DNA of 64,000 bases from Paucilactobacillus hokkaidonensis JCM 18461 (lineage in GTDB: Bacteria > Bacillota > Bacilli > Lactobacillales > Lactobacillaceae). This document shows, one piece after another, positions 6,298 to 35,091 of the stretch. The DNA is taken from the NCBI RefSeq assembly GCF_000829395.1, contig NZ_AP014680.1, positions 558,001 through 622,000 of the forward strand, given 5' to 3'. How positions within the stretch are numbered: the first letter of the stretch is position 1; every line of letters begins with the position of its first letter. Position numbers and translations under genes: made by a program. Under the pieces are notes generated by a model. It was not told the DNA's origin and did no database searches. It saw only the letters and a list, made by a program, of their open reading frames with translations.

Positions 6298-6309
6298 GAG
6301 GAATAACAA

Positions 6310-6981: not shown

Positions 6982-6983
6982 GC

Positions 6984-7614: not shown

Positions 7615-7640
7615 AATACGGAAAAAAGGAGGATGAACAT

Positions 7641-7907: not shown

Positions 7908-7958
7908 ATCATCACTTAAATTCGTATTCTGATTTGAAGATGGAAGGAGGACATAACC

Positions 7959-8327
7959 GTGATTCAACAAGAAAGTCGGTTGAAAGTTGCTGATAATTCT
8001 GGTGCTCGCGAGATTCTAGTAATTAAGATTCTAGGAGGCTCACGTGTCAAAACGGGAAATATTGGTGATATCGTTGTTGCTACTGTTAAACAAGCAACAC
8101 CAGGTGGCGTTGTCAAAAAAGGTGACGTTATTAAAGCAGTCGTTGTTCGGACTAAATCAGGTCTTCACCGTACTGATGGTTCGTATATCAAATTTGATGA
8201 AAATGCAGCTGTACTTATTAAGGATGATAAGAGCCCACAAGGTACTCGTATCTTTGGACCTATCGCTCGTGAACTACGTGATAATGATTTCATGAGAATC
8301 GTATCATTAGCTCCGGAAGTACTGTAA
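7959..8327 (+). CDS. rplN: 50S ribosomal protein L14
   Basis: 122 aa, GTG start after [29 protein letters not shown] and the [22 protein letters not shown] end are characteristic. Forms an inter-subunit bridge and is the docking site of the silencing factor RsfS. Confidence 0.98.
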
Positions 8328-8361
8328 ATTCATCTTAAAAATAAGGAGGTGCGCTATCAAC

Positions 8362-8670
8362 ATGTTTGTAAAAACTGGTGACAAAGTTCGAGTAATCAGC
8401 GGTAAGGACAAGGGTAAAGAAGGCACTATTACTAAGACCTTGACTAAAGATAACCGTGTGATCGTCGAAGGCGTCAATATGGTTAAAAAACACCAAAAAC
8501 CAAATAATGAGTTCCCACAAGGTGGCGTGATTGATAAAGAAGCGCCAATTCAAGTTTCAAATGTCATGCTTATTGATCCTTCAAACAACGAATCTACACG
8601 TGTTGGTTCTAAGGTTGTTGATGGTAAAAAAGTTCGTGTGGCTAAAAAGTCAGGACAAACTCTTGATTAA
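8362..8670 (+). CDS. rplX: 50S ribosomal protein L24
   Basis: 102 aa with a KOW motif near the N-terminus ([18 protein letters not shown]) and the [18 protein letters not shown] segment. Early 23S assembly initiator. AAGGAGGTG precedes ATG. Confidence 0.98.
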
Positions 8671-8698
8671 TTTTTAAAGGAAGGAGGAACAAAACTTC

Positions 8699-9241
8699 AT
8701 GGTAAACCGTTTGAAGGACAAGTATGTTAATGAAGTTACACCTTCATTAGTTGAAAAGTTTAATTATACTTCTATTATGCAGACACCTAAGATTGATAAA
8801 ATTGTTTTGAACATGGGTGTCGGTGATGCAACGACTAACGCTAAAAATCTTGATGAGGCTGTTGAAGAATTATCATTGATTTCTGGTCAAAAACCTTTGG
8901 TTACAAAGGCTAAAAAGTCAATTGCCGGCTTCCGTCTTCGTGAAGGAATGTCAATTGGTGCGAAAGTTACATTGCGTGGTGAACGCATGTATGATTTCTT
9001 GGATAAATTGGTTAATGTTTCGCTCCCTCGAGTTCGTGATTTTCACGGTGTTAGTAATAAAGCATTTGATGGTCGCGGAAACTATACTTTAGGGGTTAGA
9101 GAACAATTAATTTTCCCAGAAATCAATTATGATAATGTTAATCGTGTTCGGGGTTTAGATATTGTTATTGTTACAACAGCAAATACTGACGAAGAATCAC
9201 GTGAACTATTGGCACAATTAGGTATGCCATTTGCTAAATAA
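8699..9241 (+). CDS. rplE: 50S ribosomal protein L5
   Basis: 180 aa. Contains [31 protein letters not shown] and [16 protein letters not shown], typical of L5, which carries 5S rRNA into the central protuberance. GGAAGGAGG precedes ATG. Confidence 0.98.
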
Positions 9242-9259
9242 ATAAGGGGGTTCCACACA

Positions 9260-9445
9260 TTGGCAAAAAAATCTCAACTTGCTAAAAACAAGCGTCCAGC
9301 TAAGTTTTCAACACAGGCGTACACTCGCTGTGAGCGTTGTGGACGTCCACACTCTGTTTATCGAAAGTTCCATTTATGCCGTATCTGCTTACGGGATCTT
9401 GCCCACAAGGGTCAAATTCCTGGTATGAAAAAGGCTAGCTGGTAA
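9260..9445 (+). CDS. rpsN: 30S ribosomal protein S14, zinc type
   Basis: 61 aa, TTG start after AAGGGGG. This is the short zinc-binding form: two CxxC pairs, CERC and CRIC, with the typical spacing (RCERCGRP...[10 protein letters not shown]). The longer Zn-free paralogue is not in the window. TTG starts are frequent in this block. Confidence 0.97.
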
Positions 9446-9480
9446 ACAATTTAAACCAACAAAAAGGAGGATAAACATCG

Positions 9481-9879
9481 ATGTCTATGACTGATCCAAT
9501 TGCAGATTTCTTGACTCGTATTCGTAATGCGAACATGGTTCGTCACGAGTCACTAGAAGTTCCTGCATCAAAAATTAAGCATGACATTGCTGAAATCTTG
9601 AAAAATGAAGGTTTTGTACGCGATGTCGAATACGTTGATGATGACAAGCAAGGTATCATCCGTGTATTTTTAAAGTATGGTAAAGACAACGAACGTGTTA
9701 TTTCTGGTTTGAAACGTATCTCAAAACCTGGTTTGCGTTCATATGTTAAAGCTGACGCTGTTCCTAAGGTTTTAAACGGTCTTGGAATTGCAATTATCTC
9801 TACATCAGAAGGTGTTGTAACAGATAAAGAAGCTCGTGCTAAAAAAGTCGGTGGAGAAGTTCTCGCCTACGTCTGGTAA
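9481..9879 (+). CDS. rpsH: 30S ribosomal protein S8
   Basis: 132 aa, [18 protein letters not shown], ending [27 protein letters not shown] as in other S8 proteins. Central-domain 16S binder and, in E. coli, the spc operon repressor. AAGGAGG precedes ATG. Confidence 0.98.
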
Positions 9880-9909
9880 TACAATAAATATAGTAAGGAG
9901 GTGCGCATA

Positions 9910-10446
9910 GTGAGTCGTATTGGTTATAAAACAATTGAATTGCCAGCTGGCGTTGAAGTTAAGCGTGATGGTGATGATGTTACAGTTAAAGGACCTAAGG
10001 GTTCGTTGACGCGAAAGGTTTCTCCAATTATCACAATGAATGTTGATGGTAATGAAGTTAAATTTGATCGTCCTGATGACAACAATAAGACACGTGCCAT
10101 TCATGGTACAACTCGTGCTAATGTTAATAACATGGTTGAAGGTGTCGTCAATGGGTTCTCTAAGACATTGAAACTTGTCGGTGTTGGATATCGTGCACAG
10201 TTAAAGGGTACAAAATTAATTTTAGCTGTTGGATATTCACATCCAGTTGAATTTGAAACTCCAGAGGGCCTAAAGCTTGAAGTTCCCGATAACACTACAA
10301 TTAAAATTGATGGTATTGGTAAGCAAGCTGTTGGTGACTTTGCTGCGGAAGTTCGTGCCGTTCGTTCACCAGAACCTTATAAGGGTAAAGGTATTCGTTA
10401 TTCAGACGAAGTTGTTCGTCGTAAAGAAGGTAAGACTGGTAAATAG
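9910..10446 (+). CDS. rplF: 50S ribosomal protein L6
   Basis: 178 aa from GTG 9910 ([17 protein letters not shown]), chosen because AAGGAGG (9895-9901) is 8 nt upstream; the GTG at 9901 overlaps that sequence. Contains [12 protein letters not shown] and the terminal [21 protein letters not shown]. Locates near the GTPase-factor binding site. Confidence 0.97.
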
Positions 10447-10482
10447 TCTTAGTTAAAAAATTAAAATAAAGAGGTGACTGTT

Positions 10483-10839
10483 GTGATTACAAAACCAGAT
10501 AAGAACCAAACCCGCCAACGTCGTCATGCACGCGTTCGTGGAAAGATCTCTGGTACTGCGGAGCGCCCACGCTTAAATGTTTTTCGTTCAAACCAAAACA
10601 TCTACGCTCAATTAATTGATGATGTAGAGGGTGTGACGCTCGCAAGTGCCTCCACAATAGACAGTGAAGTAAGTAGCAAAACCAAAACAGAACAAGCAGC
10701 AGAGGTTGGTGCCTTAATCGCTAAGCGCGGTTCAGACAAAAACATTTCTGACGTTGTTTTTGATCGTGGTGGCTATTTATATCACGGACGTGTCCAAGCT
10801 TTGGCTGAAGCAGCACGTGAAAATGGATTGAAGTTCTAA
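10483..10839 (+). CDS. rplR: 50S ribosomal protein L18
   Basis: 118 aa from GTG 10483 ([19 protein letters not shown]); the upstream GTG at 10474 lies inside the GAGGTGA ribosome-binding site (10471-10477). Contains [20 protein letters not shown] and [20 protein letters not shown] 5S rRNA binder. Confidence 0.97.
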
Positions 10840-10861
10840 AGAAAAGGAGGAATAACCCGTA

Positions 10862-11362
10862 ATGGCATTTATTGACCCATCAAAATTAGATCTTGAAGAT
10901 AACGTTGTTTCAATCAACCGGATCACTAAAGTTGTTAAAGGTGGACGTCGTCTTCGTTTTGCCGCATTAGTAATTGTCGGTGATAAAAAGGGCCACGTTG
11001 GCTTTGGTACAGGTAAAGCACAAGAAGTTCCTGAAGCGATTCGGAAAGCTGTTGAAGCCGCAAAGAAGAACTTGATCGAAGTTCCAATTGTTGGCACAAC
11101 CTTACCACACCGAGTTCTTGGCGTTTATGGCGGTGGCCGAATCATGTTGAAGCCTGCCGTTGAAGGTTCTGGTGTTGCCGCTGGTGGTGCTGTTCGTTCC
11201 GTGATGGAATTGGCTGGCGTTGCTGATGTAACATCAAAACGTTTAGGTTCTAATACTCCTGTTAATGTTGTTCGTGCAACATTTGAAGGCTTAAAAGAAC
11301 TTAAGAATGCAGAAACAGTTTCAGGTCTACGTGGCGTTTCACTCGAACATTTAGCACAATAG
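10862..11362 (+). CDS. rpsE: 30S ribosomal protein S5
   Basis: 166 aa with a dsRNA-binding-like N-terminal half ([30 protein letters not shown]) and the C-terminal [20 protein letters not shown] block. Part of the decoding and mRNA helicase region. AAAGGAGGA precedes ATG. Confidence 0.98.
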
Positions 11363-21251: not shown

Positions 21252-21278
21252 TATACCTGGTATATCAGCGTTTAACAG

Positions 21279-21313
21279 GTGTTTCGCAACTATGTTGTGG
21301 AGCACTTTTTTTG
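21279..21313 (+). terminator. Terminator after rpsI
   Basis: GTGTTTCGCAAC (21279-21290) pairs over 12 bp with GTTGTGGAGCAC (21294-21305), allowing G-U pairs, with eight T following. A near copy occurs at 49109-49139. Confidence 0.85.
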
Positions 21314-21731: not shown

Positions 21732-23573
21732 GTGCAACTTTCAAATAGAGAAATTAAAATTACCTTACTACTACTTGAAAATGACAAGGCGATAACTGCT
21801 AAAGACTTATCTGAGCATTTTAATATTAGTGTAAAAATGATCAAGTACGATCTTGATAATGTTCGAGATTGGCTTAACTATGATAAAAAATTTTTTTATT
21901 CGAAACGAAATCGTGGATTTTGGATCGAGGCGGATCATAAGCAACGTGAAAAATTAAAAGTGCAGCTTTTAAGTCGTAACGAATTTGAATATTATCCAGC
22001 ACCAGAACAACGAGCCAATCAATTAATTACGATCATGTGTTTAACTGATGGATATATTACTGGTCAGCAATTTGAAAATAAAATGAATGTTAGTAAAACA
22101 ACAATTCTAAGCGATTTAAATCGGGTAGAAAAAATTGCAAATCAGTATTCTGTTCGATTAGAAAGAAAGAATTACTATGGGTATTCTTTGGTGGGTGGTG
22201 AAAAGAATATTCGTGGATTATTTGAATCAGTTTTACAGCACAGCTTTAGTAATTATGATATATATACAATTATGAATTTATTAGCAAGTGAAAGTACTGA
22301 AAAAAAGCATGCTATTACATTTGGAATGAATGCCGAAATTGAAAATGTACTTAAAATTGTTTTGGAAACAGCAGCTAAGAGTCAGAAATCATTGGCGCAA
22401 ACCAAATTTGATGATGATGATTTACTAACGATTATGATTAGGATAACAATTTCAGTTGCACGTTTAAGTATTAATCATCCGATGAATAGCTATCATGTTT
22501 TAAAACTTCCAAATGATGAACAAGATGTAATTTACCATATGGCCAAGCAAGTTAATGAAAGGTATGGTTACTCATTACTAGAAGATGAATATTCTTTCAT
22601 TATAGGAGGTACACAAAGCTTAGGCATAGACGAAAAAAACATTGCTAAAATGACAGACCATATCATTCATTATGTCAGTGAGAAAACTGGTCATTCATAT
22701 GGAAGAGACCAGCAACTACAAAATAATTTATTTTATCACATGATGAAATTAACTAGTAAATATCAGTTTACTAGTGAGTATAATCCGTTTGTAGACGATA
22801 TTAAAAAAAATCATTTAACATTATTTAATGCGATATATGATGTTAGCAGACTCGAAATATCCGATAATCCATCTATAGTTAATGATTCTTTTGTTGCGTA
22901 CATTGCACTACATTTTCTAGTCTCTCTAGAGACAAAAAATATTACGCCTCGTAATATAAGAATTGTATACGTATGTTCAACAGGTCTTGGTGTAACTAAT
23001 TTAGTTCAGAAAAAAATTCAGGAAGAAATTGATAATGTTGAAATAGCAGGATTTACTTCATACTTGAATGCTAAAGTAGCGATTAATTCATTAAAACCGG
23101 ATTTAGTTGTTAGTATATTTCCTTTAGATATTTCGAATATTCCAGTGATTCGTGTCAGCCCATTGCCATCCGGACAGGACATTGAAAAAATAAAAGGTGA
23201 AGTTGTAAAATTAGGCGGTAAAAATCAGAAGTACGAAGTGTCTCAGAGAAAAGCAACGCATAGTGATTTTAATTTAAAAGATGAAAGTCGAGATATTATT
23301 TTAAAAGGATTTTCAGTTTTTGAAGCGGTAAAACTAATTTTACCTGGTAATTTTGATTCAGAGTACTCTGATGCATTGCTATTGCATGTTTTTATGGCTG
23401 TCCATCGAATTTATTTTTCAGAACAGTATGAGGAAATCAGCAGTCGACGATTTAGTGAAAAAGAAGTTAAATTACTTAATAAAGTTAAAGATATCTTTAA
23501 CGATAATGAATTATCTATAAATAACTCAGAGCTTCAGGCCTTTGGTGAATATCTAACTTTAGTAGCAAACTAA
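21732..23573 (+). CDS. PRD-containing transcriptional regulator (MtlR/LicR-like)
   Basis: 613 aa, GTG start after GAGGTGA. An N-terminal helix-turn-helix pair (about 1-150; KAITAKDLSEHFNISVKMIKYDL, then MNVSKTTILSDLNRVEK) is followed by PTS-regulation-type helical domains (about 190-390), an EIIB-like domain with CSTGLGVT (Cys415), and a further PRD-like C-terminal part (LLLHVFMAVHRIYF). Such proteins are normally controlled by phosphorylation from PTS proteins. It directly precedes the SFCGS/DUF4310-4312 operon and is its probable activator. The presence of an EIIB-like Cys domain suggests that the substrate is PTS-handled. Confidence 0.85.
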   Translation: MQLSNREIKITLLLLENDKAITAKDLSEHFNISVKMIKYDLDNVRDWLNYDKKFFYSKRNRGFWIEADHKQREKLKVQLLSRNEFEYYPAPEQRANQLITIMCLTDGYITGQQFENKMNVSKTTILSDLNRVEKIANQYSVRLERKNYYGYSLVGGEKNIRGLFESVLQHSFSNYDIYTIMNLLASESTEKKHAITFGMNAEIENVLKIVLETAAKSQKSLAQTKFDDDDLLTIMIRITISVARLSINHPMNSYHVLKLPNDEQDVIYHMAKQVNERYGYSLLEDEYSFIIGGTQSLGIDEKNIAKMTDHIIHYVSEKTGHSYGRDQQLQNNLFYHMMKLTSKYQFTSEYNPFVDDIKKNHLTLFNAIYDVSRLEISDNPSIVNDSFVAYIALHFLVSLETKNITPRNIRIVYVCSTGLGVTNLVQKKIQEEIDNVEIAGFTSYLNAKVAINSLKPDLVVSIFPLDISNIPVIRVSPLPSGQDIEKIKGEVVKLGGKNQKYEVSQRKATHSDFNLKDESRDIILKGFSVFEAVKLILPGNFDSEYSDALLLHVFMAVHRIYFSEQYEEISSRRFSEKEVKLLNKVKDIFNDNELSINNSELQAFGEYLTLVAN

Positions 23574-23601: not shown

Positions 23602-23934
23602 ATGCAAGTTAATTCTGATACTGAAAGGATAATTGAAGACTCCAAGTTTCCAAGTGAAACCAAAGAAGCGCTGAATTTCACATTGGACAAAATGAAAGCG
23701 TTTAACATTGTACCTACCGATGTTCAGGTTACCATTTTAACCAATCATATAGCGGAAATGGTAGCTAGATCTAAATCAGGAGAAAAGTTAATGGATGTGG
23801 ATCCAACAATGTTTGATGAGGTATCTACTGAAGCGATGACAATTGCGGATGACCTTGTTAAACATATTGGAAATTTAGCTGTTTCAGAAAAATATGTAGT
23901 TTCGATTCATTTTGAGACTGCTAAGAATAATTAA
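23602..23934 (+). CDS. PRD-domain mini-protein (EF_0829-like)
   Basis: 110 aa, essentially one PRD domain without DNA-binding region. Histidines in PRD-like settings: H49 (TNHIAEMVAR), H88 (LVKHIGNL) and H103. It is the first gene of a tight operon and is conserved in that position in the EF_0829-EF_0839 / AHA_3910-3917 type clusters as I recall them. No biochemical role is established. Being an isolated PRD beside membrane proteins, it could be a phospho-acceptor or regulatory subunit of the transport system (inference). Confidence 0.75.
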   Translation: MQVNSDTERIIEDSKFPSETKEALNFTLDKMKAFNIVPTDVQVTILTNHIAEMVARSKSGEKLMDVDPTMFDEVSTEAMTIADDLVKHIGNLAVSEKYVVSIHFETAKNN

Positions 23935-23949
23935 AGGGAGATAGTTATT

Positions 23950-24312
23950 ATGATTAAAGTAGTTATTGCAGATCGTATGGGTAAAGGACAAGAAGTTGCT
24001 AAAGGCGCGGAAAAAGCAGGTGCGAAAGCGGTTGTTGTTCCGGGTATGGGAGCAGACATGAGGCTTGGTGACGTCATGCAAAAAGAAAATGCTGATATTG
24101 GTTTTTCATTTTGTGGTAGCGGTGGAGCAGGAGCAATTACAGCTCATACTAAGTATGGTTATCCAGAGCGTCATGGAATGCGTTCAGTCCAAGAAGGCAT
24201 TACTGCAATCGAAGAAGGAGATACTGTCCTCGGTTTTGGTTTCATGGATAAGCAGGAATTAGGTGAACAGATTGTTAAAGCATTTCAGAAAAAATACCCA
24301 GAAAAAGAATAG
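23950..24312 (+). CDS. Glycine-rich SFCGS family protein
   Basis: 120 aa soluble protein with the namesake block GFSFCGSGGAGAITAHTKYG (Cys55), and a Rossmann-like beginning MIKVVIADRMGKGQEVAKGAEK. The family is uncharacterised. A single invariant Cys followed by a Gly-rich loop recalls the phospho-cysteine loop of PTS IIB proteins, but no homology is shown. AGGGAG precedes ATG; it lies 15 bp after the PRD gene. Confidence 0.8.
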   Translation: MIKVVIADRMGKGQEVAKGAEKAGAKAVVVPGMGADMRLGDVMQKENADIGFSFCGSGGAGAITAHTKYGYPERHGMRSVQEGITAIEEGDTVLGFGFMDKQELGEQIVKAFQKKYPEKE

Positions 24313-24342
24313 CGGTTTATTTCACTGAAGGAGATGGCAAAA

Positions 24343-24717
24343 ATGATTAATGACAGTGTTGCTAAACAAAAGTTTGAGACTTTAAGGCTAGTTGGGCAAG
24401 GAACAAAGAAGCAGCAAGCTTTTGCAAATGCGTTTGCTAAAATTCAAAAAGATTTAGTTAAAGATGAATCAAAGGTTACGGTACGAATAGAACCTATAGA
24501 AGTTAATTTAGTTAGTGCGGTGAAGGAAAGTTATAAAGAAAAATTTCTATTTTTCTTTTTTCCACGTACACGCGTTAACTATTCGGTTACATTGGATGTC
24601 AAAGTGAAGATAACTGATATTGATATAAATTCTTTAAATTTTGTATCACAACAATTACCTTCTCCAGATAAAATCAATATTCCACATTTTGGCATATTTG
24701 CTAAGGAGGAAAAGTAA
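24343..24717 (+). CDS. DUF4312 family protein
   Basis: 124 aa from ATG 24343; GAAGGAGA (24327-24334) is 8 nt upstream, while the earlier ATG 24334 is inside that site. Soluble, mixed alpha/beta, with a distinctive FLFFFFPRTRVNYS segment. It is conserved between the SFCGS gene and DUF4311 in this cluster type. Function unknown; probably a cytoplasmic component of the transport system (inference from linkage). Confidence 0.75.
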   Translation: MINDSVAKQKFETLRLVGQGTKKQQAFANAFAKIQKDLVKDESKVTVRIEPIEVNLVSAVKESYKEKFLFFFFPRTRVNYSVTLDVKVKITDIDINSLNFVSQQLPSPDKINIPHFGIFAKEEK

Positions 24718-24719
24718 TT

Positions 24720-25496
24720 ATGCACATCGTAATAGTTTTAATTCAATCAATTATTATTGGTGGCCTTGTTGGTTTTGCAACAGGAGTTGGTGCTGCCAGA
24801 ATGTGGAATGCACCAACAGTTCAAGCTTTGGGAGCATGGCGAACACTTGGAGAAATGAACGCGTGCGAAGGGGATGCTGCATCTCATTTTGCCTTCGGAC
24901 TTGGTTTCTTCTTTAATGCATGGGCCTCAACAGTTGGAGCAGGTGCCTTTACACAAGATGTTACCCATCGTGTTATTCCAAACTGGGCAGCCGCTAGTTT
25001 ATTAATTCGTAATAAGGATATTAAAAAGACTGTACAGAATCCTAAGGCAATGGGAATTGCCGGTGGATTAATTGGAATGGTTATTGTGGCCTTGTTAAAC
25101 ACGACCGCCTCGGCTATTCCAGAGTCATTGCAAGTTACAGCTATTCACGTCCTAGTTCCTGCAGCTACTATTTTAATTAACACAGTTATGCCTGTACTTT
25201 TTTGGTTAGCCGCAATAGATGCAGGTCGTCGATCGGGGCTTATGGGGACTATTTTTGCCGGATTAGCTCAATTGATTATGGGAAATGCTGTACCCGGAGC
25301 CGTACTTGGTATTTTAGTGGGTAAAGGTGTTGATGAACTTGGCTGGACCAAAACAACTAAAATTATGTTAACAGCTGTAATCTTGCTATTTGTCTTGAGT
25401 GGGTTCTTCCGCGGGTTTGATATGTTGCTGTTAAAGTCGTTCAATCTTGGCGTACCTGGCTGGTTAAATAGCTTGCATAACGCAATTGGTGGCTAA
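24720..25496 (+). CDS. DUF4311 family membrane protein
   Basis: 258 aa with about six hydrophobic segments. The first begins at residue 5 (VLIQSIIIGGLVGFATGVGAA). Conserved-looking polar residues lie between helices, such as GEMNACEGDAASHFAFG and GAFTQDVTHRVIPNW, which could line a substrate path. It starts 3 bp after DUF4312. Paired with DUF4310 it is the likely permease; its substrate is unknown, and the downstream enzymes point to an amino-sugar acid derivative. Confidence 0.8.
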   Translation: MHIVIVLIQSIIIGGLVGFATGVGAARMWNAPTVQALGAWRTLGEMNACEGDAASHFAFGLGFFFNAWASTVGAGAFTQDVTHRVIPNWAAASLLIRNKDIKKTVQNPKAMGIAGGLIGMVIVALLNTTASAIPESLQVTAIHVLVPAATILINTVMPVLFWLAAIDAGRRSGLMGTIFAGLAQLIMGNAVPGAVLGILVGKGVDELGWTKTTKIMLTAVILLFVLSGFFRGFDMLLLKSFNLGVPGWLNSLHNAIGG

Positions 25497-25516
25497 ACAA
25501 AGAGGGGTGAAAAAAT

Positions 25517-26176
25517 ATGGAAAATGATTTGAAAGACTTAGAACATGCTAAAAGTTTTTGGTTTGCTGATTGGTCGTTTCCAATTATTGTAGCGATAATG
25601 TCAGCTGGAGTATTTGCTGGGACATCAGTTTATTATAATTATGGTGTTGGTGCTTTTAATGAAGTTGCGATTGTTGCAATGCTCAAAGCAGGAATTAGCG
25701 GTGGTTCATATGGGGCCGCTGCAGCATTTGGCGCTAGCTTTCTATTTGCCAGAGTTTTGGAAGGGTCCCTTGTTGGAATCTTGGATTTAGGTGGTTCGAT
25801 ATTAACTGGTGTAGGAATTGGTATTCCGGCTTTACTACTTAGTATGGGGATGAAAACTCTTGTATCTAACTTTCCGTTAGCACTTTTAACTGGTCTAATA
25901 ATTGGTCTGGTTATTGGTTATGTTATTATTTTGGTTCGTAAATACACGATCAATCAATCGGATGCTACCTTTGGTGCAAACATCATGATGGGAGCCGGAA
26001 ATGAAACGGGACGATTCTTAGAACCATTGATTATTTTAAGCGCTTGTTTAGCTAGTATTCCAATTGGGATTGGTTCAGTTCTCGGTGCTGCAGGGTTTTA
26101 TGCCTGGAAAAAACCAATAGCTGGTGGAGCAATTTTAGGTGCAATGATACTAGGGGCGTTTTTCCCAATCAAATAG
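25517..26176 (+). CDS. DUF4310 family membrane protein
   Basis: 219 aa with about six membrane segments and a cytoplasmic-looking N-terminus (MENDLKDLEHAKSFWFADWSF). Polar motif NIMMGAGNETGRFLEPLI sits between helices. Probable second permease subunit with DUF4311. GAGGGG precedes ATG. Confidence 0.8.
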   Translation: MENDLKDLEHAKSFWFADWSFPIIVAIMSAGVFAGTSVYYNYGVGAFNEVAIVAMLKAGISGGSYGAAAAFGASFLFARVLEGSLVGILDLGGSILTGVGIGIPALLLSMGMKTLVSNFPLALLTGLIIGLVIGYVIILVRKYTINQSDATFGANIMMGAGNETGRFLEPLIILSACLASIPIGIGSVLGAAGFYAWKKPIAGGAILGAMILGAFFPIK

Positions 26177-26192
26177 GAGTTGAAATATTATC

Positions 26193-27308
26193 ATGATAGA
26201 CCTATATATTAAAAATGGTAAAAATGAAAATAACGAACCAATTGAATTAGGGATTGATAATGGAAAAATTGTAGCTGTCGGACCAAAGCTTGCAGGGATG
26301 GAAGCAAAAAAAGTGATCAATCTAAAAAGGGAATCGTATGTTTCAGCAGGATGGATTGATGACCATACACACTGTTATGAAAAACTGACATTATACTATG
26401 ACGATCCAGATATTGATGGATATCAAAGTGGAGTTACAACTGTTATCGATGCAGGTTCAACAGGAGCCGATAATATCGATGATTTTTATAATATTACACG
26501 TAATAAAAGAACCAATGTATTAGCAATGTTAAATATCTCTAAAACAGGTATCACAGCGCAAGATGAACTTGGAGATATTGATAAAATTCAAGATAAATTA
26601 ATGGAACAAAAACTTGAACAATATCCTGGTTTTATTGTGGGAATCAAGGCACGTATGAGTCACTCAGTAGTATTAGATAATGGTTTAAATCCTTTAAAGA
26701 GAGCAAAAAAAATTCAAAAAGAAAATTTTGATTTACCACTAATGGTACATGTTGGTTCTAATCCACCAGAGTTAGATGGAATTTTAAATTTGATGGAAGA
26801 AAATGATATTTTAACGCATGCATATAATGGAAAACCAAATGGTATCCGCGACGACGAAGGCAATATTAAAAATTTTGCATGGGATGCATATCATAAAGGT
26901 ATTATCTTTGATGTAGGGCACGGATCTGATAGTTTTAATTTTCAGACAGCGAGAACAGCTTTCCAAATTGGTTTAAAACCTAGATCATTGAGTACAGATA
27001 TTTATCATCGTAATCGTGAAAACGGGCCGGTTTATGATATGGCAACTTGCGTTGAAAAAATGCTTGAGTTGGGGTACGACTTAAACGAAGTTATACCAAT
27101 GATTACTTCTGCACCAGCTGATAATTTTCATTTGGTACACAAGGGTGAATTAAAAGAAGGATACGATGCTGATGTAACAATTTTTAATATCGAGAATGGC
27201 ACTAAAGAGCTGACAGACTCAGATGGTAATAAAATGACAACGCATACTTTGGTTAAGCCAGTAGCAGCGATAATTGCAGGTAAAGATTTTCAATTAGGAG
27301 GGAAATAG
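26193..27308 (+). CDS. Amidohydrolase/deacetylase family metallohydrolase
   Basis: 371 aa TIM-barrel amidohydrolase of the dihydroorotase-like type. Metal-site residues visible: DDHTH (first pair), a probable carboxylated Lys in VGIKARMS, His in LMVHVG and LTHAYNG, and catalytic Asp in LSTDIYHRN. Expected reaction: hydrolysis of an amide bond, perhaps deacylation of an N-acyl amino-sugar acid before DgaE. The substrate is unknown. It belongs to the EF_0837/AHA_3915-like family and is 2 bp from the next gene. Confidence 0.85.
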   Translation: MIDLYIKNGKNENNEPIELGIDNGKIVAVGPKLAGMEAKKVINLKRESYVSAGWIDDHTHCYEKLTLYYDDPDIDGYQSGVTTVIDAGSTGADNIDDFYNITRNKRTNVLAMLNISKTGITAQDELGDIDKIQDKLMEQKLEQYPGFIVGIKARMSHSVVLDNGLNPLKRAKKIQKENFDLPLMVHVGSNPPELDGILNLMEENDILTHAYNGKPNGIRDDEGNIKNFAWDAYHKGIIFDVGHGSDSFNFQTARTAFQIGLKPRSLSTDIYHRNRENGPVYDMATCVEKMLELGYDLNEVIPMITSAPADNFHLVHKGELKEGYDADVTIFNIENGTKELTDSDGNKMTTHTLVKPVAAIIAGKDFQLGGK

Positions 27309-27309
27309 G

Positions 27310-28410
27310 ATGTCAGATGTTTATGAAAAATATGGTTTAAAGAGAGTAATTAATGCGAGCGGCAAGATGACAATTTTGGGGGTATCTAAGGTTTCAGACG
27401 GAGTGTTAGAAGCTCAAAAATTTGGTGGACAACACTTCTTTGAAATGTCAGAGTTAGTTTTGAAAACCGGTCAACATATTGCCAAATTATTAGGAGCTGA
27501 AGATGCTATTATTGTAAACTCAGCTTCAGCAGGAATTGCACAGGCTGTGGCCGGTGTTATTGGACAAGGAAGCAAGTATCATGCATATCATTCAGGAACT
27601 GAGCGAATTACTAGACGTGACATAGTTATACCCAAGGGGCAGAACGTTGATTATGGTGCACCTGAAGAAGTGATGATTCAATTAGGCGGTGGACATGTTG
27701 TGGAGGCGGGGTATGCTAACATGTGCTCTCCAGAACATGTGGATATGATGATTAATGATAATACGGCAGCTGTTTTGTATGTGAAAAGTCACCACGCTGT
27801 ACAAAAAAGTATGTTAGAGGTTGCAGATGCGGTTAAAGTGGCGCATGCACATAACTTACCACTTATTTTAGACGCAGCTGCTGAAGAAGATCTCAAAAAG
27901 TATCTTGATTTAGATGTAGATATCATTATTTTTAGTGGTGCAAAATCACTTGAAGGACCTGCTTCTGCACTTGTCTATGGGAAGCAAAAATATATTGAAT
28001 GGATTCGACTACAAAGTATTGGTATCGGACGGGCAATGAAAATTGGAAAGGATAATATTCTTGGGCTGACTGCGGCCATTGAGGAATATCTCAAAATTGG
28101 ACCTGAGAATGGCGATAAAATGAAACAACGATTGGCACCATTTTTATCAGATTTAAATAAAATTAATGGGATTCAAGCAAAAGAGGTTCAGGACGGAGCT
28201 GGAAGAGATATTTATCGTGCTAGTGTGACTGTAAAAGATGATTCCCCTTTAAATGCAAAAGAGGTTACTGCGAAGTTAAAAGAAGGCAATCCTGCTATTT
28301 ATACTCGTGAATATCGAGCAAACGTCGGCATAATTGAATTTGATATTCGAGCTGTTGATGGTGAAGAAATGGATAAAATTGTTACAAGATTAAATGAAAT
28401 TTTAAAATAA
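27310..28410 (+). CDS. dgaE: DgaE-like PLP-dependent ammonia lyase
   Basis: 366 aa, SelA/aspartate-aminotransferase fold. The probable pyridoxal-phosphate lysine is K212 in IIFSGAKSLEGP, with the cofactor Asp D188 in LILDAAAEED. In Salmonella DgaE removes water and ammonia from D-glucosaminate 6-phosphate to give 2-keto-3-deoxygluconate 6-phosphate. The same type of beta-elimination is expected here, but neither the exact sugar acid nor whether it is phosphorylated is known. Overlapping context with the aldolase gene supports the pathway. Confidence 0.85.
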   Translation: MSDVYEKYGLKRVINASGKMTILGVSKVSDGVLEAQKFGGQHFFEMSELVLKTGQHIAKLLGAEDAIIVNSASAGIAQAVAGVIGQGSKYHAYHSGTERITRRDIVIPKGQNVDYGAPEEVMIQLGGGHVVEAGYANMCSPEHVDMMINDNTAAVLYVKSHHAVQKSMLEVADAVKVAHAHNLPLILDAAAEEDLKKYLDLDVDIIIFSGAKSLEGPASALVYGKQKYIEWIRLQSIGIGRAMKIGKDNILGLTAAIEEYLKIGPENGDKMKQRLAPFLSDLNKINGIQAKEVQDGAGRDIYRASVTVKDDSPLNAKEVTAKLKEGNPAIYTREYRANVGIIEFDIRAVDGEEMDKIVTRLNEILK

Positions 28411-28424
28411 AGGAAGTCAATGAA

Positions 28425-29165
28425 ATGCAATTAAAACCAAATTATTTAGATGATAGAATTTGTTTGAATGTTTTAGCCAATTCAGTGGAGAATGCAGAAG
28501 CTTGCTATGAAGCAGCTGAAGGGCATGTAGTATTGGGTGTTTTAACGAAGAATTATGACACTGATGATGCTGCAATTGAAGATATGAAGAGATACCAACA
28601 TGTAACAAATAATGCGTTATCTGTTGGGCTAGGTGCTGGCGATCCTAATCAATCCCAAATGGTTAGTCGGGTGTCAAAGGTATTACAGCCACAGCACGTT
28701 AATCAAGTATTTACAGGTGTTGGCACGAGTCGAGCATTGCTTGGTCAAAGTGACACTGTGGTAAACGGATTAATGTCACCAACTGGAAGAGTTGGATTTG
28801 TAAATATTGCCACAGGTCCCAAAAGTAGTCAAAAACCTAGTGCAGAAGTTCCAATTGAAACTGCTATTGCTTTACTACAGGATATGGGTGGTACGTCTGT
28901 CAAGTTCTTCCCTATGCACGGATTAGAGCATGAAGAGGAATTTAAAGCTGTTGCTAAAGCCTGTGCTGATGCTGGATTTAACTTAGAGCCAACAGGTGGT
29001 ATTACATTAGATAATTTTGAAGAAATTGTGCAAATTGCTGTAGACGCCGGAGTTAAAGAAATTATTCCCCATGTTTATAGCTCGATTATAGATAAAAAAA
29101 CTGGGAATACTAAACCGGAAGATGTAAAAAAACTTTATGGAATGATTAAGAGAATTTTAGGTTAA
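28425..29165 (+). CDS. dgaF: DgaF-like KDGP aldolase
   Basis: 246 aa TIM-barrel aldolase of the 2-dehydro-3-deoxy-phosphogluconate aldolase type. Blocks: VVLGVLTKNYDTDD near the N-terminus, SVKFFPMHGLEHEEE (probable Schiff-base lysine), and LEPTGGITLDNFEEI (phosphate loop). It should split KDGP into pyruvate and glyceraldehyde 3-phosphate. Last enzyme of the operon, followed by a terminator. It could also serve galacturonate breakdown from the adjacent pectin region, since both converge on this intermediate. Confidence 0.85.
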   Translation: MQLKPNYLDDRICLNVLANSVENAEACYEAAEGHVVLGVLTKNYDTDDAAIEDMKRYQHVTNNALSVGLGAGDPNQSQMVSRVSKVLQPQHVNQVFTGVGTSRALLGQSDTVVNGLMSPTGRVGFVNIATGPKSSQKPSAEVPIETAIALLQDMGGTSVKFFPMHGLEHEEEFKAVAKACADAGFNLEPTGGITLDNFEEIVQIAVDAGVKEIIPHVYSSIIDKKTGNTKPEDVKKLYGMIKRILG

Positions 29166-29220
29166 TTATGTAGTATTAGTTAGAACGATTGATTAGCTGT
29201 ATTTAATGAAATATCCAGTC

Positions 29221-29250
29221 AACGGACCTCCTTATAAGTGTCCGTTTTTT
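29221..29250 (+). terminator. Terminator after the SFCGS/DUF4310-Dga operon
   Basis: AACGGAC (29221-29227) pairs with GTCCGTT (29240-29246), leading into six T. It separates the operon from the HTH-PfkB gene, which must have its own promoter. Confidence 0.85.
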
Positions 29251-29318
29251 GTTGTGCGCTGGATAATGAATAAACTGTTATACTGATTAAATACAATACG
29301 AAAATGGAGATTTGAATA

Positions 29319-30395
29319 ATGATTTCACGTGAGCAACAAATTTTTGAATGGATAAAGCAAAATCCTATGATTAGTCAGAATGAATTGGCAGAATTAGCGG
29401 GAATTACTAGGTCGGGGGTTGCTGCACATATCTCTAATTTAGTTAAAAAAGGTTTTTTACAAGGAAAGGGGTATATCGTTGCACCGGAGAATTATGTAGC
29501 TGTTGTCGGTGGAATTACAATGGACGTTTTTGGAATTCCAAATGATGAGGTTATTGAAAAAAAGTCAAATACGGGTGTAATTTATTCTGATGTTGGTGGT
29601 TTAGGTAGAAATATTGCTGTTAATTTGACTAAACTTGATATTCCTAACTATTTTGTCTCTATTTACGGGCATGATTCTGCTGGTGAGGAATTCAAAACCG
29701 ATGCGTTAAAAAATAATCTAGATATTACATATGCTAAGCAAATTTCAAATAAACCTACTTCACGTTATCTTTATATCAACCAAACAAGTGCTAAGCGAAT
29801 TTTTGGAGTAGATGATAGTCGAATTCATGACGAGATTACACCTGAATTTTTACAAGAGAGAATCGACGTTTTAAAAAATGCAAATATGATAGTTGTTGAT
29901 CCCAATTTACCTGAGTCAACGATTTCCTGGATTTATAATCATTTTGAACAGCCATTGTTGGCCGATTCAATTAATAAAGTTCAACGATTAAGGAACGGAA
30001 TTGGTGCGCTCGATACGTTGGTTCTAAATGCGGATGAGTCAAAGATAATTGCTGGTATCAAAATTATTGATCGTGAAACGGCTAAAAAATGTGCCGATAA
30101 ACTATTAATGATGGGAATTTCAAATATATTTATTTATGATGCTGAGATTGGATTTTTGTATCAAACAAAATCTGAGTCTTTTTATTTTCCTGTTGCTTTA
30201 AAAAAAGTTCTAAATACTAATGGTGTCGGGGCTGCCGCGATTGCTGCTATAATTTATGCACATAGATTGAACATGAATGCATCACAGACGGCGAATGTTG
30301 CAAGAGCGGCCGCTGAGAAAACCATGACGACTTATTTAAATGTTTTTGAAGGTATGAATTCGAAGCTATTAAAGAAAGATAAATATGTAGATTGA
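29319..30395 (+). CDS. Winged-helix / PfkB-fold fusion protein, probably a sugar-sensing regulator
   Basis: 358 aa. The N-terminal winged helix (about 1-55; MISQNELAELAGITRSGVAAHISNL) is fused to a ribokinase/PfkB-fold domain (about 60-350). The substrate-side motif GGLGRNIAVNL (93-103) is intact, but the catalytic anion-hole motif normally ending GAGD reads NTNGVGA (299-305): the base Asp is Ala. It may therefore bind a ligand without phosphorylating it and act as a regulator. It sits between the Dga-type operon and the pectin cluster, and could control either. AATGGAG precedes ATG. Confidence 0.85.
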   Translation: MISREQQIFEWIKQNPMISQNELAELAGITRSGVAAHISNLVKKGFLQGKGYIVAPENYVAVVGGITMDVFGIPNDEVIEKKSNTGVIYSDVGGLGRNIAVNLTKLDIPNYFVSIYGHDSAGEEFKTDALKNNLDITYAKQISNKPTSRYLYINQTSAKRIFGVDDSRIHDEITPEFLQERIDVLKNANMIVVDPNLPESTISWIYNHFEQPLLADSINKVQRLRNGIGALDTLVLNADESKIIAGIKIIDRETAKKCADKLLMMGISNIFIYDAEIGFLYQTKSESFYFPVALKKVLNTNGVGAAAIAAIIYAHRLNMNASQTANVARAAAEKTMTTYLNVFEGMNSKLLKKDKYVD

Positions 30396-30409
30396 TGTTT
30401 ATATACAAG

Positions 30410-30435
30410 GGCTGAAAAAATTTCAGTCTTTTTTT
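30410..30435 (+). terminator. Terminator after the HTH-PfkB gene
   Basis: GGCTGAAA (30410-30417), AAA loop, TTTCAGTC (30421-30428), then seven T. Confidence 0.85.
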
Positions 30436-30533: not shown

Positions 30534-30625
30534 TCATAATTATATAGTCTGTAATTATTTTAAACGGGATATTTTTTAAGTTTATTGATCGATTGTGGAT
30601 ATACCCGTGGGAAAGTTGGAATGTC

Positions 30626-31927
30626 ATGTTAATGGTTAAAGTAGAAATATCGGAGAATATACAAGAAGCAATTAATAAAATCAAACTGGCCGGGGGTGGT
30701 GAATTAGTGCTTTCCTCTGGAGAGCATCTCACGGGTCCAATCGAATTAGTATCAAATTTAACAATTACGTTTCAGACTGGTGCAGTTCTTAAATTTAAGG
30801 ATGATCCAATGTTGTATCCACCAGTGTGGACACGATGGGAAGGAATTGAATGTTATGCAATGCATCCATTACTATATGCGGATCAAAAAGAAAATATTGT
30901 AATTAAAGGTAATGGTGTTATTGATGGCTCCGGAACCGAATGGTGGAATAAGTTTAGAAGTATTGAAAGTGAAGATAGAACGTTGCCAAAAGAAAAGTAT
31001 GAGTTTGCTCTAGCAAAATTAAATCCTGATTATAAAACTCGTACTGGAGGTGGCGGACGACCCTCTACTCAATTTCTAAGACCGCCTTTGGTTCAATTTT
31101 GGAAATGCCATAATATTATTTTAGATGGTATCACTTTGAAGGATTCGCCATTTTGGACTTTGCACATGGTTTATTCTGATAAAATCAGCATACAAAATAT
31201 GACTTTCTCAAATCCTGCAAACGCTATTAATACCGATGCGATGGATATTGATTCTAGTCAAGATGTTACTGTGAAACACTGTTTACTTGATGTTGGGGAT
31301 GATGGTGTAACACTTAAATCTGGTTCTGGTAAAGATGGTATTCGCGTTAATCGCCCAACAAAGAATGTAAAAGTCACTGACTGTAAAATTTTGGCCAGCC
31401 ATGGTGGAATTGCTATTGGCTCTGAAACGGCTGCTGGTATAAGTGATGTTGAAGTTACAGATTGCACCTTCGATGGCACTCGTCGTGGAATTCGATTGAA
31501 ATCTCGTCGTACACGTGGAGGAACAATTGAAAATATTACACTTTCTAATCTTAAAATGGATTCTTGTTGGTGTCCGATTTCGTTAGAGCAGTATTTTGCT
31601 CCTGGGGTTTTACCAGAAGAAGAGTCTACTGTACTTGATGAAGGGCTACAACCAGAGAATGAAACAACACCGCATATTCGAAACATCAATATTAAAAATA
31701 TTAAGGCTACGAATGTTCGCGCAACCGCTGCATTTATTGTTGGTTTACCTGAAGCAAATATTGAGAATATCAATATTGAAAATTTTAATTGGTCGCTGGC
31801 AGAAGAGAAAAATTTATTACCAACTGAAAAAGCTGAGGAAACGGGTGGACGGTTCCATAATAGCGATCGTGGTATTAAAACTATTAATGTTACTAATTTA
31901 TCGATTAACGGTAAAAAAATTAGTTAA
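30626..31927 (+). CDS. Glycoside hydrolase family 28 (polygalacturonase-like)
   Basis: About 433 aa right-handed beta-helix enzyme. Start ATG 30626 is a choice among several (30593, 30626, 30632), none with a strong ribosome-binding site. GH28 catalytic blocks are present: NTD (202-204), DD (225-226), H259 in SHGG and RLK (290-292). The family hydrolyses alpha-1,4 linkages in polygalacturonate or related pectic chains. No signal peptide is seen, so it is probably an intracellular enzyme acting on imported oligogalacturonides. It is followed by a transporter gene 27 bp downstream. Confidence 0.88.
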   Translation: MLMVKVEISENIQEAINKIKLAGGGELVLSSGEHLTGPIELVSNLTITFQTGAVLKFKDDPMLYPPVWTRWEGIECYAMHPLLYADQKENIVIKGNGVIDGSGTEWWNKFRSIESEDRTLPKEKYEFALAKLNPDYKTRTGGGGRPSTQFLRPPLVQFWKCHNIILDGITLKDSPFWTLHMVYSDKISIQNMTFSNPANAINTDAMDIDSSQDVTVKHCLLDVGDDGVTLKSGSGKDGIRVNRPTKNVKVTDCKILASHGGIAIGSETAAGISDVEVTDCTFDGTRRGIRLKSRRTRGGTIENITLSNLKMDSCWCPISLEQYFAPGVLPEEESTVLDEGLQPENETTPHIRNINIKNIKATNVRATAAFIVGLPEANIENINIENFNWSLAEEKNLLPTEKAEETGGRFHNSDRGIKTINVTNLSINGKKIS

Positions 31928-31954
31928 CCTAGGGTAGAAATTTGGAGGAAAAAA

Positions 31955-33487
31955 ATGGAGAATCAAAAAAAACGGTGGGTGTATACTCCACATAAGATTT
32001 CTGTTTGGCGTTCTATTGGCTATGGGATTAATGATATGAACGGAGCATCATGGGGAACGTTGGTTGGTTCCTATCTTATGTTTTTCTTGACCACGTATGG
32101 TAAATTATCGGCTGCTTCAGTTGGTCTTTTATTCTTAATTGGTAAGTTTTTGAATGCAATTATGTCAATGTTGGCCGGCTCAATTTCAGATCGATTATAC
32201 TCGACTAAAATTGGAAGACGTTTTGGTCGGCGACATCTATTATTGTTGGTTGGTGCACTTCTAACTATTATATTTTTCCCGTTACTATTTACGGTTGTAC
32301 CTGGTAGCTTCTGGTGGTATCTGGTAGCCTTTGTCATGGTTGAAACTGCTAATGTCATTATAGGTACTGCGTACGAAACTTTGGCAACTGAAATGACACC
32401 CAATGCTGATGATAGGGTTAAAATGTCTTCAATCAGGTTGTTTATTTCAGCCTTTGCTACTTTTTCAGTTTCGGCTTTGCCCGCAACATTATTAGCTGTA
32501 CTAGGCCAAGGAGCTAAGGCTTATACAATTTCTGGTATTGTATTTGGAATTGTTTTTGCAATTTCTACTTTAATTACTTATCGTTCAACTTGGGAACATT
32601 CGCCTGAAGAAGTTGAAGAATTTGAAAGTTCTAATCGCTCAACAGATGATAGTAAAGAGAACAGCTTTATGAGTTCTATACGTGATTATTGGGAAATGTT
32701 GCGTAATAAATCTGCTCGGTATATGGTTTCAATTTATTTTTTGACATATTTTGCGAAAGATTGTTTCTCAACGGCCTTTCTGTACTATGTCGTGTTTGTT
32801 CTTGGATTCTCTCAAACGCTTGGTCAGGGAATAGCGTCATTATCATTTATTGGAATGATAGTTGTGCCAGTCGCAGCCTACATGCTGATTAAAACGAAAA
32901 ATCCAAAGTTAAACTGGTCAACTTCTTTTAGCATAATATTTGTAGTTATGGCAGGATTCTTTGTACTTTCCTTGCAACATTCTAGCCTTGGTAAGGGTAA
33001 TACAATTATAACCTTGATCGTCTTAGGTGTTTTATGGCAAATAGGTCGTCAATTTTTGGAATATACTGCATGGCAAGTTATACCACTTGTTCCAGATGTT
33101 GATACAATCGTTTCAAGTAAATTAAGAACAGGAACCTTTGCTGCCGTGCAATCATTTACACGTCAGCTAACAGGTGCTCTTGGGTCAGCCTTGTTAGGCT
33201 TTATCCTAGAATGGGGTGGCTTTAAATCTGGTGCATTGCATCAAACAGCTCAGGCTCAGGATGCAATCCTTGTCGTATTGATTGTAGTTCCAGTTATTTC
33301 CATTTCAATTGCTTGGTGGATGGTATCACGTTTTAATCTAAATCAACGAACTCATAAAATTTTACATGATGAAATTGAACGTTTGCAGGCAGGCGGAAAT
33401 AAAGACGATGTTGCTCCAGAAACAAAGGCAGTAGTTGAAAATCTTACTGGTTACAAGTGGGATAAAGTTTGGCAAAAAAATAGTTAG
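31955..33487 (+). CDS. GPH-family sugar:cation symporter (MFS fold)
   Basis: 510 aa, about 12 membrane helices. The N-terminus (YGINDMNGASWGTLVGSYLMFF) and loop LAGSISDRLYSTKIGRRFGRRH are typical of the glycoside-pentoside-hexuronide:cation symporter family. A long hydrophilic C-terminal tail follows the last helix. Position after the GH28 gene suggests uptake of galacturonide or a related oligouronide (inference). TTGGAGGA precedes ATG. Confidence 0.85.
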   Translation: MENQKKRWVYTPHKISVWRSIGYGINDMNGASWGTLVGSYLMFFLTTYGKLSAASVGLLFLIGKFLNAIMSMLAGSISDRLYSTKIGRRFGRRHLLLLVGALLTIIFFPLLFTVVPGSFWWYLVAFVMVETANVIIGTAYETLATEMTPNADDRVKMSSIRLFISAFATFSVSALPATLLAVLGQGAKAYTISGIVFGIVFAISTLITYRSTWEHSPEEVEEFESSNRSTDDSKENSFMSSIRDYWEMLRNKSARYMVSIYFLTYFAKDCFSTAFLYYVVFVLGFSQTLGQGIASLSFIGMIVVPVAAYMLIKTKNPKLNWSTSFSIIFVVMAGFFVLSLQHSSLGKGNTIITLIVLGVLWQIGRQFLEYTAWQVIPLVPDVDTIVSSKLRTGTFAAVQSFTRQLTGALGSALLGFILEWGGFKSGALHQTAQAQDAILVVLIVVPVISISIAWWMVSRFNLNQRTHKILHDEIERLQAGGNKDDVAPETKAVVENLTGYKWDKVWQKNS

Positions 33488-33527
33488 TTTATTTTAAGAA
33501 ATTAATACTCAGATTTATGAATAACAG

Positions 33528-33545
33528 AAATAATTTATCTTGCTA
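33528..33545. repeat. 18-bp repeat, copy 1
   Basis: Identical 18-mer AAATAATTTATCTTGCTA occurs at 42074-42091. Each copy lies shortly after the stop codon of a sugar transporter gene; similarity continues weakly for about 8 more bases. Confidence 0.6.
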
Positions 33546-33616
33546 AGGGTGTTGCAGAATCAATAACCCAGGTTGTTGCAGTCCGTTGGATTAATTTTTA
33601 GCAAATAAAAGTCAAT

Positions 33617-33664
33617 GTGAGTTATATTCCGAAAGAAAAGTATTACTTTCAGGGTATAGCTCAC
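33617..33664 (+). terminator. Long hairpin, probable terminator of the GH28-transporter operon
   Basis: Arms 33617-33635 and 33646-33664 pair with few mismatches (GTGAGTTATA against TATAGCTCAC, CCGAAAG against CTTTCAGG), with a 10-nt loop and TTTGAATT after it. The T-run is poor, so it could instead be an mRNA 3'-stabilising hairpin. Confidence 0.5.
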
Positions 33665-33911
33665 TTTGAATTATTGTTAGAAACTGACGAATATACTTTG
33701 AGGTACGACTTTAAGTCGGCTAATAATTAATCTATAAAATATTACGAAGGTTTTTTGTTAATTGAAATCACTAAATACGTAGCAAATATTATTATAGGAA
33801 AAATAAATTTAGTACATGTATTTGGTATATTATTTAATTTTATTGCGGATTAGGGCCAGTTTCGTGTGAATTACACACTTTTTAATTTTAAATATATTGT
33901 TATCATTTTAG

Positions 33912-33926
33912 TTGTAAGCGTTTACT
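33912..33926. promoter_or_regulatory. cre box upstream of the oxidoreductase operon
   Basis: TTGTAAGCGTTTACT matches the cre consensus at all 15 positions. It lies 28 bp before the next start codon. Confidence 0.8.
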
Positions 33927-33954
33927 TTAGATGATCAAATTGAGGAGGATTCTG

Positions 33955-35091
33955 ATGGAAGTAGAAAAAATCAAAGTTGCAGTGATTGGTTGTGGTGTAA
34001 TTAGTGATATTTACATTCAATCATTGCAGGACAAGTTTACTATTACTGATGTAGTGGCTTGTTATGACCTGAATACAGATAAAATGAACGAAAAAGCAAA
34101 AAAATATCATTTGAAAGCAATGAGCATTGATGATATTTTGTCTGATTCGACGATTAAAATGATTGTTAATCTAACTAATCCAGCAGCCCATTATGATGTT
34201 ATTAAATCTGCATTAGAACATGGGAAAAATGTATTTTCGGAAAAAATGATTGCAGTTAACTTAGATGATGGAAAAAAATTATGTCAATTAGCAAAGGATA
34301 AGGGCTTGAGATTGGGAGTCGCTCCAGACACATTCTTGGGTGGCGGAATTCAAACAGCTAAGTATATTGTTGATAAAGGATTGATTGGAACGCCACTTTC
34401 AACCGTTGTTTCATTAAATCGTAATTTTGATGTGTATGCAGATATTTTTCCGCATATGAATAAAAAAGGTGGCACATTACCATTTGATACTGGTTGTTAT
34501 TATCTGACAGCATTAGCTAGTATTCTAGGGCCTACTAAACGCGTAAGTAGTTTTGGACGCTGCTACAAGCCAGATCGGATTGGCAAGCGAGTTGATAAGC
34601 CATGGTTTGGAGAGAAGAGTGTTGTTGCCGACAAAAATATTTTGACAGCAACTTTGGAATATCAAAATGGAGTTTTAGGTACCGTTCACTTTAATTCTGA
34701 GTCTATTCAAAATGAGCAGATATGTTTAGATATTTATGGTACAGAGGGTATTTTAAAACTTGGTGATCCTAATAATTTTAACTCACCAAACCTATTATTA
34801 AAGCAACAAAATGAACCAGTTGAGTTTCCATTTACTCATGGATATTTAACTAATTCACGTGGACTGGGAGCTGCAGAAATGGCTTGGTCAATTCAAAATA
34901 ATCGGCCACATCGTGCTAGTATGGAAATGGCTTATCACGTATTTGAATTAATTCATGGTATGTATATTAGTGCAACCACAGACAGTGTATATGGCATGAA
35001 ATCAACGTTTGATAAACCGACATCTTTGCCAACTGGATATCTCGATAACGGTTTTTGGGGCCCCACGGAAGAAAGTGCACTAGCATTTTAA
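33955..35091 (+). CDS. Gfo/Idh/MocA family oxidoreductase
   Basis: 378 aa from ATG 33955, 8 nt after TGAGGAGGA; an upstream ATG (33931) precedes that site. Rossmann start VAVIGCGVISDIYIQSL and the family's EKP-type motif as SEKMIAVN, then the C-terminal alpha/beta substrate domain with DTGCYYL. NAD(P)-dependent sugar or cyclitol dehydrogenases are typical; the substrate is not deducible. Probably one operon with the VOC and UPF0303 genes. Confidence 0.88.
   Translation: MEVEKIKVAVIGCGVISDIYIQSLQDKFTITDVVACYDLNTDKMNEKAKKYHLKAMSIDDILSDSTIKMIVNLTNPAAHYDVIKSALEHGKNVFSEKMIAVNLDDGKKLCQLAKDKGLRLGVAPDTFLGGGIQTAKYIVDKGLIGTPLSTVVSLNRNFDVYADIFPHMNKKGGTLPFDTGCYYLTALASILGPTKRVSSFGRCYKPDRIGKRVDKPWFGEKSVVADKNILTATLEYQNGVLGTVHFNSESIQNEQICLDIYGTEGILKLGDPNNFNSPNLLLKQQNEPVEFPFTHGYLTNSRGLGAAEMAWSIQNNRPHRASMEMAYHVFELIHGMYISATTDSVYGMKSTFDKPTSLPTGYLDNGFWGPTEESALAF

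Follow-up and report, generated by a model that had tools for sequence, protein, structure and literature searches.

A conserved five-gene module, likely coupled to the phosphotransferase system, as a candidate importer of glucosaminate-like acids

An operon of Paucilactobacillus hokkaidonensis JCM 18461 encodes a lone PRD protein, SFCGS, DUF4312, and the membrane proteins DUF4311 and DUF4310, followed by an amidohydrolase, a DgaE-like lyase, and the 2-keto-3-deoxy-6-phosphogluconate (KDGP) aldolase DgaF. It occupies positions 23602-29165 of the window, the whole 64,000-nucleotide stretch analyzed here (contig 1, positions 558001-622000, of a 2.4 Mb Bacillota genome). We suggest that the first five genes most likely form an importer of an (N-acyl)glucosaminate-like acid that is fed by the phosphotransferase system (PTS) and probably phosphorylates its substrate; we infer every phosphotransfer step, the substrate, and the direction of transport. 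These five conserved families have no assigned function and span hundreds of species (at least 496 stretches), including enterococci, lactobacilli, Pantoea, and Aeromonas. If the module is a PTS permease, group translocation would gain a new route and a PRD domain a carrier role beyond regulation.

Results

Open reading frames and profile matches confirmed the operon composition given in an earlier note on this DNA, which had also recognized the gene order of the EF_0829-EF_0839 / AHA_3910-3917 clusters. Models TIGR03577-03583, the hypothetical equivalogs describing those clusters, score over their trusted cut-offs in order, making the window a member with the same families and arrangement. 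Intergenic gaps from the upstream regulator through the aldolase are 1-28 nucleotides, and we therefore treat these genes as one operon.

A scan of genome contigs yielded at least 496 stretches encoding SFCGS, of which the best 80 were kept for locus comparison and show the same cluster order. In these 80 loci the core genes PRD-SFCGS-DUF4312-DUF4311-DUF4310 are always adjacent wherever the contig is uncut, and the amidohydrolase, DgaE, and DgaF genes usually lie downstream. Two minimal loci (L045 and L052) have a regulator and these five genes but no adjoining enzyme genes, so we take the five to be the core of the module. In a distant Bacillota set the amidohydrolase gene lies upstream of the PRD gene, with a HAD phosphatase gene downstream of DgaF; the phosphatase gene adjoins DgaF in L098-L101, fitting phosphorylated intermediates. 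In many enterococcal loci (L026, L029, L036, L043, and others) the DUF4310 and amidohydrolase genes are separated by genes for a lactose/cellobiose/chitobiose-type EIIC, a small membrane protein, and a glycosidase of the MupG family, and a KDG-kinase-type PfkB gene comes after DgaF. Compared with this enterococcal form, the window lacks EIIC, MupG, and the kinase KdgK, and has a gene for a degenerate helix-turn-helix (HTH)-PfkB protein. We found no open-access paper on DUF4310-4312/SFCGS or EF_083x loci.

We consider the module likely to be coupled to the PTS because the PRD histidines are invariant, PRD and SFCGS occur as a fusion, two lineages encode HPr and Enzyme I (EI) within the operon, all carriers tested have EI, and some carriers have no detectable 2-keto-3-deoxygluconate (KDG) kinase. 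EI was present in 45/45 carrier genomes tested, against 118 of 299 Bacillota genomes in an even sample of the phylum, in which all six carriers have EI. With phylogeny ignored, the chance of this association is 0.0035, or 0.018 for four distant carriers. The earlier note had reasoned that occurrence in many genomes lacking EI/HPr would speak against a PTS-like system; the outcome favors its idea, and in never being found without EI the module co-occurs with the PTS as an Enzyme II (EII) permease would. The L099 operon (683-11129), which also has a HAD phosphatase, ends in its own HPr and EI genes, in a genome with three EI-type genes. On a 55.7 kb plasmid of Bartonella sp. HY406 (L103; NZ_CP104895.1, 272-10062) an HPr-EI fusion is the last gene of a complete operon whose regulator has PRD and EIIA_2 domains. 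Both sets of HPr/EI have intact HARP and GG..SH phosphorylation motifs, and neither the L099 nor the L103 operon contains an EII gene.

PRDs are known phosphorylation targets of HPr and EIIB. In the lone PRD protein H49 (91/91 sequences), H103 (90/90), and Arg56 (91/91) are fully conserved. Both histidines are retained even beside the GntR-type regulators of L060 and L074, two loci in which a PRD regulator was not seen, suggesting that the lone PRD serves more than a PRD regulator. In L101 PRD and SFCGS are joined in one natural protein, whose AlphaFold2 model (pLDDT 91, pTM 0.59) is reliable for the domains, but not for their relative placement. Structure comparison matched its PRD half to the stand-alone PRD 3nuf (Z 14.7): despite two invariant histidines, the predicted fold is that of a PTS target, the PRD, and not that of IIA. 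In Companilactobacillus tucceti (L063, 9514-9702) an in-frame stop after residue 63 splits the PRD gene, which is intact in its relative L074.

The SFCGS half of the same model matches RpiB (3s5p; VIA Z 12.2, 114 residues, 2.5 A). The SFCGS profile PF14272 matches an RpiB at E 4e-4, under its own cut-off, and hhalign gives P 4.8e-5 against RpiB. Shared with the RpiB/LacAB isomerases (PF02502) are the fold and the Cys-Gly-(Ser/Thr)-Gly loop: C55-G-S-G of SFCGS, whose C55 is invariant in 100 of 100 sequences, aligns with the RpiB catalytic loop CGTG. Residues D8, R9, K12, D36, S57, R78, S79, and D100 show no or almost no variation across this set. Missing from SFCGS are the invariant His and the C-terminal phosphate-binding Arg residues of the isomerases; RpiB-invariant H97, N98, R131, and R135 have no counterpart among the SFCGS invariants, no His is invariant among the 100 proteins, and SFCGS lacks the GGRHxRRVDKI tail of RpiB. 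Model and alignment together indicate that SFCGS has the RpiB fold but, with these His, Asn, and Arg residues missing, a different pocket that is positively charged.

DUF4312, DUF4311, and DUF4310 of L054 were modeled as one chain by reading through two stops, a modeling device that corresponds to no real protein (pLDDT 78). DUF4312 adopts a beta-alpha-beta-beta fold in this model, and its top 18 VIA matches are all dodecins or dodecin-like proteins (60-75 residues aligned, Z 7.5 or less), which is suggestive of a dodecin-like protein. DUF4311 and DUF4310 each have several predicted membrane helices plus short broken helices; fold search with this mid-confidence model gave no convincing match in the PDB or to a known transporter. 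We rejected the idea that DUF4310 and DUF4311 are paralogous halves, as hhalign shows no similarity between them.

The enzymes, judged by their families, fit N-acyl-D-glucosaminate or an epimer as substrate: a TIGR03583 deacetylase, a DgaE-family lyase (545.7 bits on the wider DgaE subfamily model, cut-off 385.3), and DgaF (388.1 on its equivalog model, cut-off 300). The Salmonella dgaABCDEF system for D-glucosaminate uses the mannose-type PTS DgaABCD for uptake (Miller et al. 2013, as cited in PMC9529869). The two systems share a DgaE-family lyase with its phosphate-site Arg kept, and DgaF, downstream of PTS-linked uptake; the window differs in having no EII, an extra amidohydrolase, and a lyase that falls under the DgaE equivalog cut-off. 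C1-oxidised chitin was rejected as a general source of substrate: a lytic polysaccharide monooxygenase is encoded by just 12 of 51 carriers, which argues against it, and not by the window genome. The module also resembles E. coli yhfSTUWXYZ-type operons, which combine a small PRD-like protein, a small soluble Cys-loop protein, and a membrane protein, as seen in L167 (175-3132; small PRD-like protein, phosphotriesterase-like protein, YhfU, and YhfT). Homology was rejected, since profile similarity of YhfU to SFCGS and of YhfT to DUF4311/4310 is not significant, though the Cys motifs align.

DgaF cleaves KDGP, so phosphate must be added at some step. A KdgK-type PfkB kinase is encoded by 27 of 34 Bacillota carriers. 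The other seven, all having DgaF, gave no such match: G051, G144, L. xiangfangensis, L. songbeiensis, Tetragenococcus solitarius, Periweissella fabalis, and Lactococcus garvieae EP01. Kinases of other families may be present, and several genomes are drafts. Every PfkB protein read in G051 and G144 is of the ribokinase, 1-PFK, HldE-like, ThiD, or PdxY type, and DGOK is absent from both. The operons of G051, G144, Bartonella, and the Pantoea group contain no kinase gene. The window lyase retains Arg301/332/346, which in D-glucosaminate-6-phosphate lyase (DGL) border the phosphate site.

Discussion

We suggest that the five gene products would act as a single uptake machine drawing phosphoryl groups from EI and HPr. 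The lone PRD (His49/His103) would be the likely point of phosphoryl entry. SFCGS, in which Arg9, Lys12, Arg78, and the loop around Cys55 are invariant, would probably receive the phosphoryl group next or be where the substrate is phosphorylated; DUF4312 may be a dodecin-like coupling protein, and DUF4311 and DUF4310 may form the membrane channel. The imported acid, probably N-acyl-D-glucosaminate or a close epimer, would be delivered as the 6-phosphate. The amidohydrolase would then remove the acyl group, the DgaE-like lyase would deaminate the product to KDGP, and DgaF would split KDGP into pyruvate and glyceraldehyde-3-phosphate. Of the explanations considered, phosphorylation during transport by way of PRD and SFCGS is the strongest single one, at a little under an even chance. 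A bolder proposal, which we put forward tentatively and think somewhat likelier to fail than to hold, is that the module is a PTS permease of a new class, with no relation to the sugar EII classes already known. The PRD would be the carrier, in the manner of IIA, and an RpiB-fold Cys protein would be the phosphodonor, in the manner of IIB; the remaining parts would be a dodecin-like subunit and a membrane channel built from two proteins of unrecognised fold.

Several observations weigh against a phosphorylating importer. Within Lactobacillales and enterics, finding EI in a carrier is nearly trivial, and the operon-borne EI/HPr could serve just the PRD regulator. The earlier note had looked to structure prediction for likeness of SFCGS to PTS IIA/IIB and of DUF4310/4311 to IIC. 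SFCGS was rejected as a PTS IIB, having the RpiB fold, an hhalign P of 0.19 against IIB (lactose/cellobiose-type), and no PTS_IIB Pfam match, and no IIC likeness of DUF4311/4310 emerged from the fold search with the mid-confidence model or, at E 1, from Pfam. The lyase reaches 372.6 bits on the DgaE glucosaminate-6-P lyase equivalog, whose cut-off is 600. The remote SelA family also seems to preserve Arg332 and Arg346, and with two of three so shared we rejected the phosphate-site arginines, as too weak, as proof of a phosphorylated substrate. In 12 loci, mostly enterococcal, a KdgK gene follows the operon, and would be needless if substrate always entered phosphorylated; in enterococci the adjoining KdgK would be explained if EIIC and MupG supplied a disaccharide and its second sugar were released unphosphorylated. 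The window genome itself encodes a KDG kinase elsewhere (G000:C1:2053470-2054420), in a KduI-KduD-KdgT-KdgK-Eda operon. The earlier note's statement that no apparently competent kinase is present thus stands for the operon, whose neighboring PfkB protein has the motif NTNGVGAAA, and fails for the genome; its argument from a missing kinase to phosphorylating transport is not binding for this organism, while the PTS coupling it proposed is supported by the evidence above.

This KdgK brings in a different route, in which uptake is non-phosphorylating, the amidohydrolase and lyase convert the free acid to KDG, and a KDG kinase encoded elsewhere makes KDGP for DgaF. It has a demonstrated precedent in the Ong pathway of Pseudoalteromonas for C1-oxidised chitin, where deacetylation and deamination precede KdgK (PMC9537276). 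The likeness lies in the sequence from deacetylation to deamination to KDG-6-P; peculiar to the Ong pathway are enzymes of the D-aminoacylase and D-amino-acid-deaminase types, an SSS-family transporter, and a KdgK within the cluster (PMC9537276). Although the kinase of the window genome, the 12 loci with adjoining KdgK (with EIIC and MupG), and the 27 kinase-bearing carriers suit this route, we consider it unlikely given the seven carriers without such a kinase and the kinase-free operons of G051, G144, Bartonella, and the Pantoea group.

The same carriers bear on a reading in which the PTS link is only regulatory, HPr~P acting on the PRDs of the regulator and the lone PRD protein to gate an ordinary secondary transporter. 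Phosphorylation of PRDs by HPr and EIIB, the PRD regulator that heads or follows most operons, and the PRD and EIIA_2 domains of the Bartonella regulator would all be expected from it. We nevertheless think it quite improbable, as the lone PRD keeps both histidines beside a GntR-type regulator, PRD is fused to a catalytic-looking RpiB-fold domain, and carriers with no detectable KDG kinase still require a phosphorylation step. The RpiB fold of SFCGS (Z about 12), the PF14272 match, and the common Cys loop could instead point to an RpiB-type pathway isomerase, leaving DUF4312-4311-4310 alone as the transporter. This is very unlikely: no His is invariant in SFCGS and the RpiB tail is missing, the enzymes present already close the pathway without an isomerase step, and SFCGS persists without enzymes in L045 and L052. 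We retain the PTS-fed importer as the preferred explanation.

Genomic context

Table 1. Genes of the operon and its immediate neighbors (window coordinates)
Feature	Position	Strand	Evidence
PRD-containing BglG/MtlR-type regulator with EIIB-like domain (VCSTGLG)	21732..23573	+	HTH_11, Mga, 2 PRD
Stand-alone PRD protein, proposed phosphocarrier	23602..23934	+	TIGR03582, 116.5 bits; H49 and H103 invariant
SFCGS protein, RpiB-like fold (predicted)	23950..24312	+	PF14272 E 2e-57, TIGR03577 E 2e-61; C55 invariant
DUF4312, predicted dodecin-like small soluble protein	24334..24717	+	PF14189/TIGR03578; hydrophobic stretch FLFFFFP
DUF4311 membrane protein, proposed translocator subunit	24720..25496	+	PF14188 E 6e-106, TIGR03580 E 5e-133
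DUF4310 membrane protein, proposed translocator subunit	25517..26176	+	PF14187 E 9e-98, TIGR03579 E 1e-104
Amidohydrolase/deacetylase, EF_0837 family (PDB 2ics relative)	26193..27308	+	TIGR03583
DgaE-family pyridoxal phosphate (PLP) ammonia lyase	27310..28410	+	TIGR01437; Arg301/332/346 phosphate cluster of DGL retained
DgaF KDGP aldolase	28425..29165	+	PF07071/TIGR03581, over NCBIfam equivalog cut-off
Winged-helix and PfkB protein, broken catalytic motif NTNGVGAAA; window-specific neighbor	29319..30395	+	Profile match, motif reading

The EIIB-like domain of the regulator is visible from its VCSTGLG motif, while the Pfam PTS_IIB model, at E 0.098, falls short of its cut-off. The flanking terminator-like sites are 21277-21307 and 30407-30431, though the total number of such sites equals chance expectation. 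The same scan, with its chance-level site number, found none in 29165-29319, and the HTH-PfkB gene may therefore share the operon transcript. Its product is probably not a working kinase because its catalytic motif is altered, reading NTNGVGAAA in place of DATGAGDAL of an intact relative and losing the catalytic Asp (GVGA for GAGD); it may be a dead kinase that has become a sugar-sensing regulator. This gene was not seen beside the operon in the other loci compared. Further downstream (30593-35091) are genes for a GH28 family protein, a transporter, and a GFO/IDH/MocA oxidoreductase, which together with KduI/KduD elsewhere in the genome suggest use of plant pectin.

The Bartonella plasmid operon adjoins the type VI secretion genes tssA and tssM, and a similar plasmid carrying SFCGS is found in HY761. 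Two replicons catalogued as plasmids, NZ_AP026896.1 and CP125156.1 (4.9 and 5.4 Mb), resemble chromosomes.

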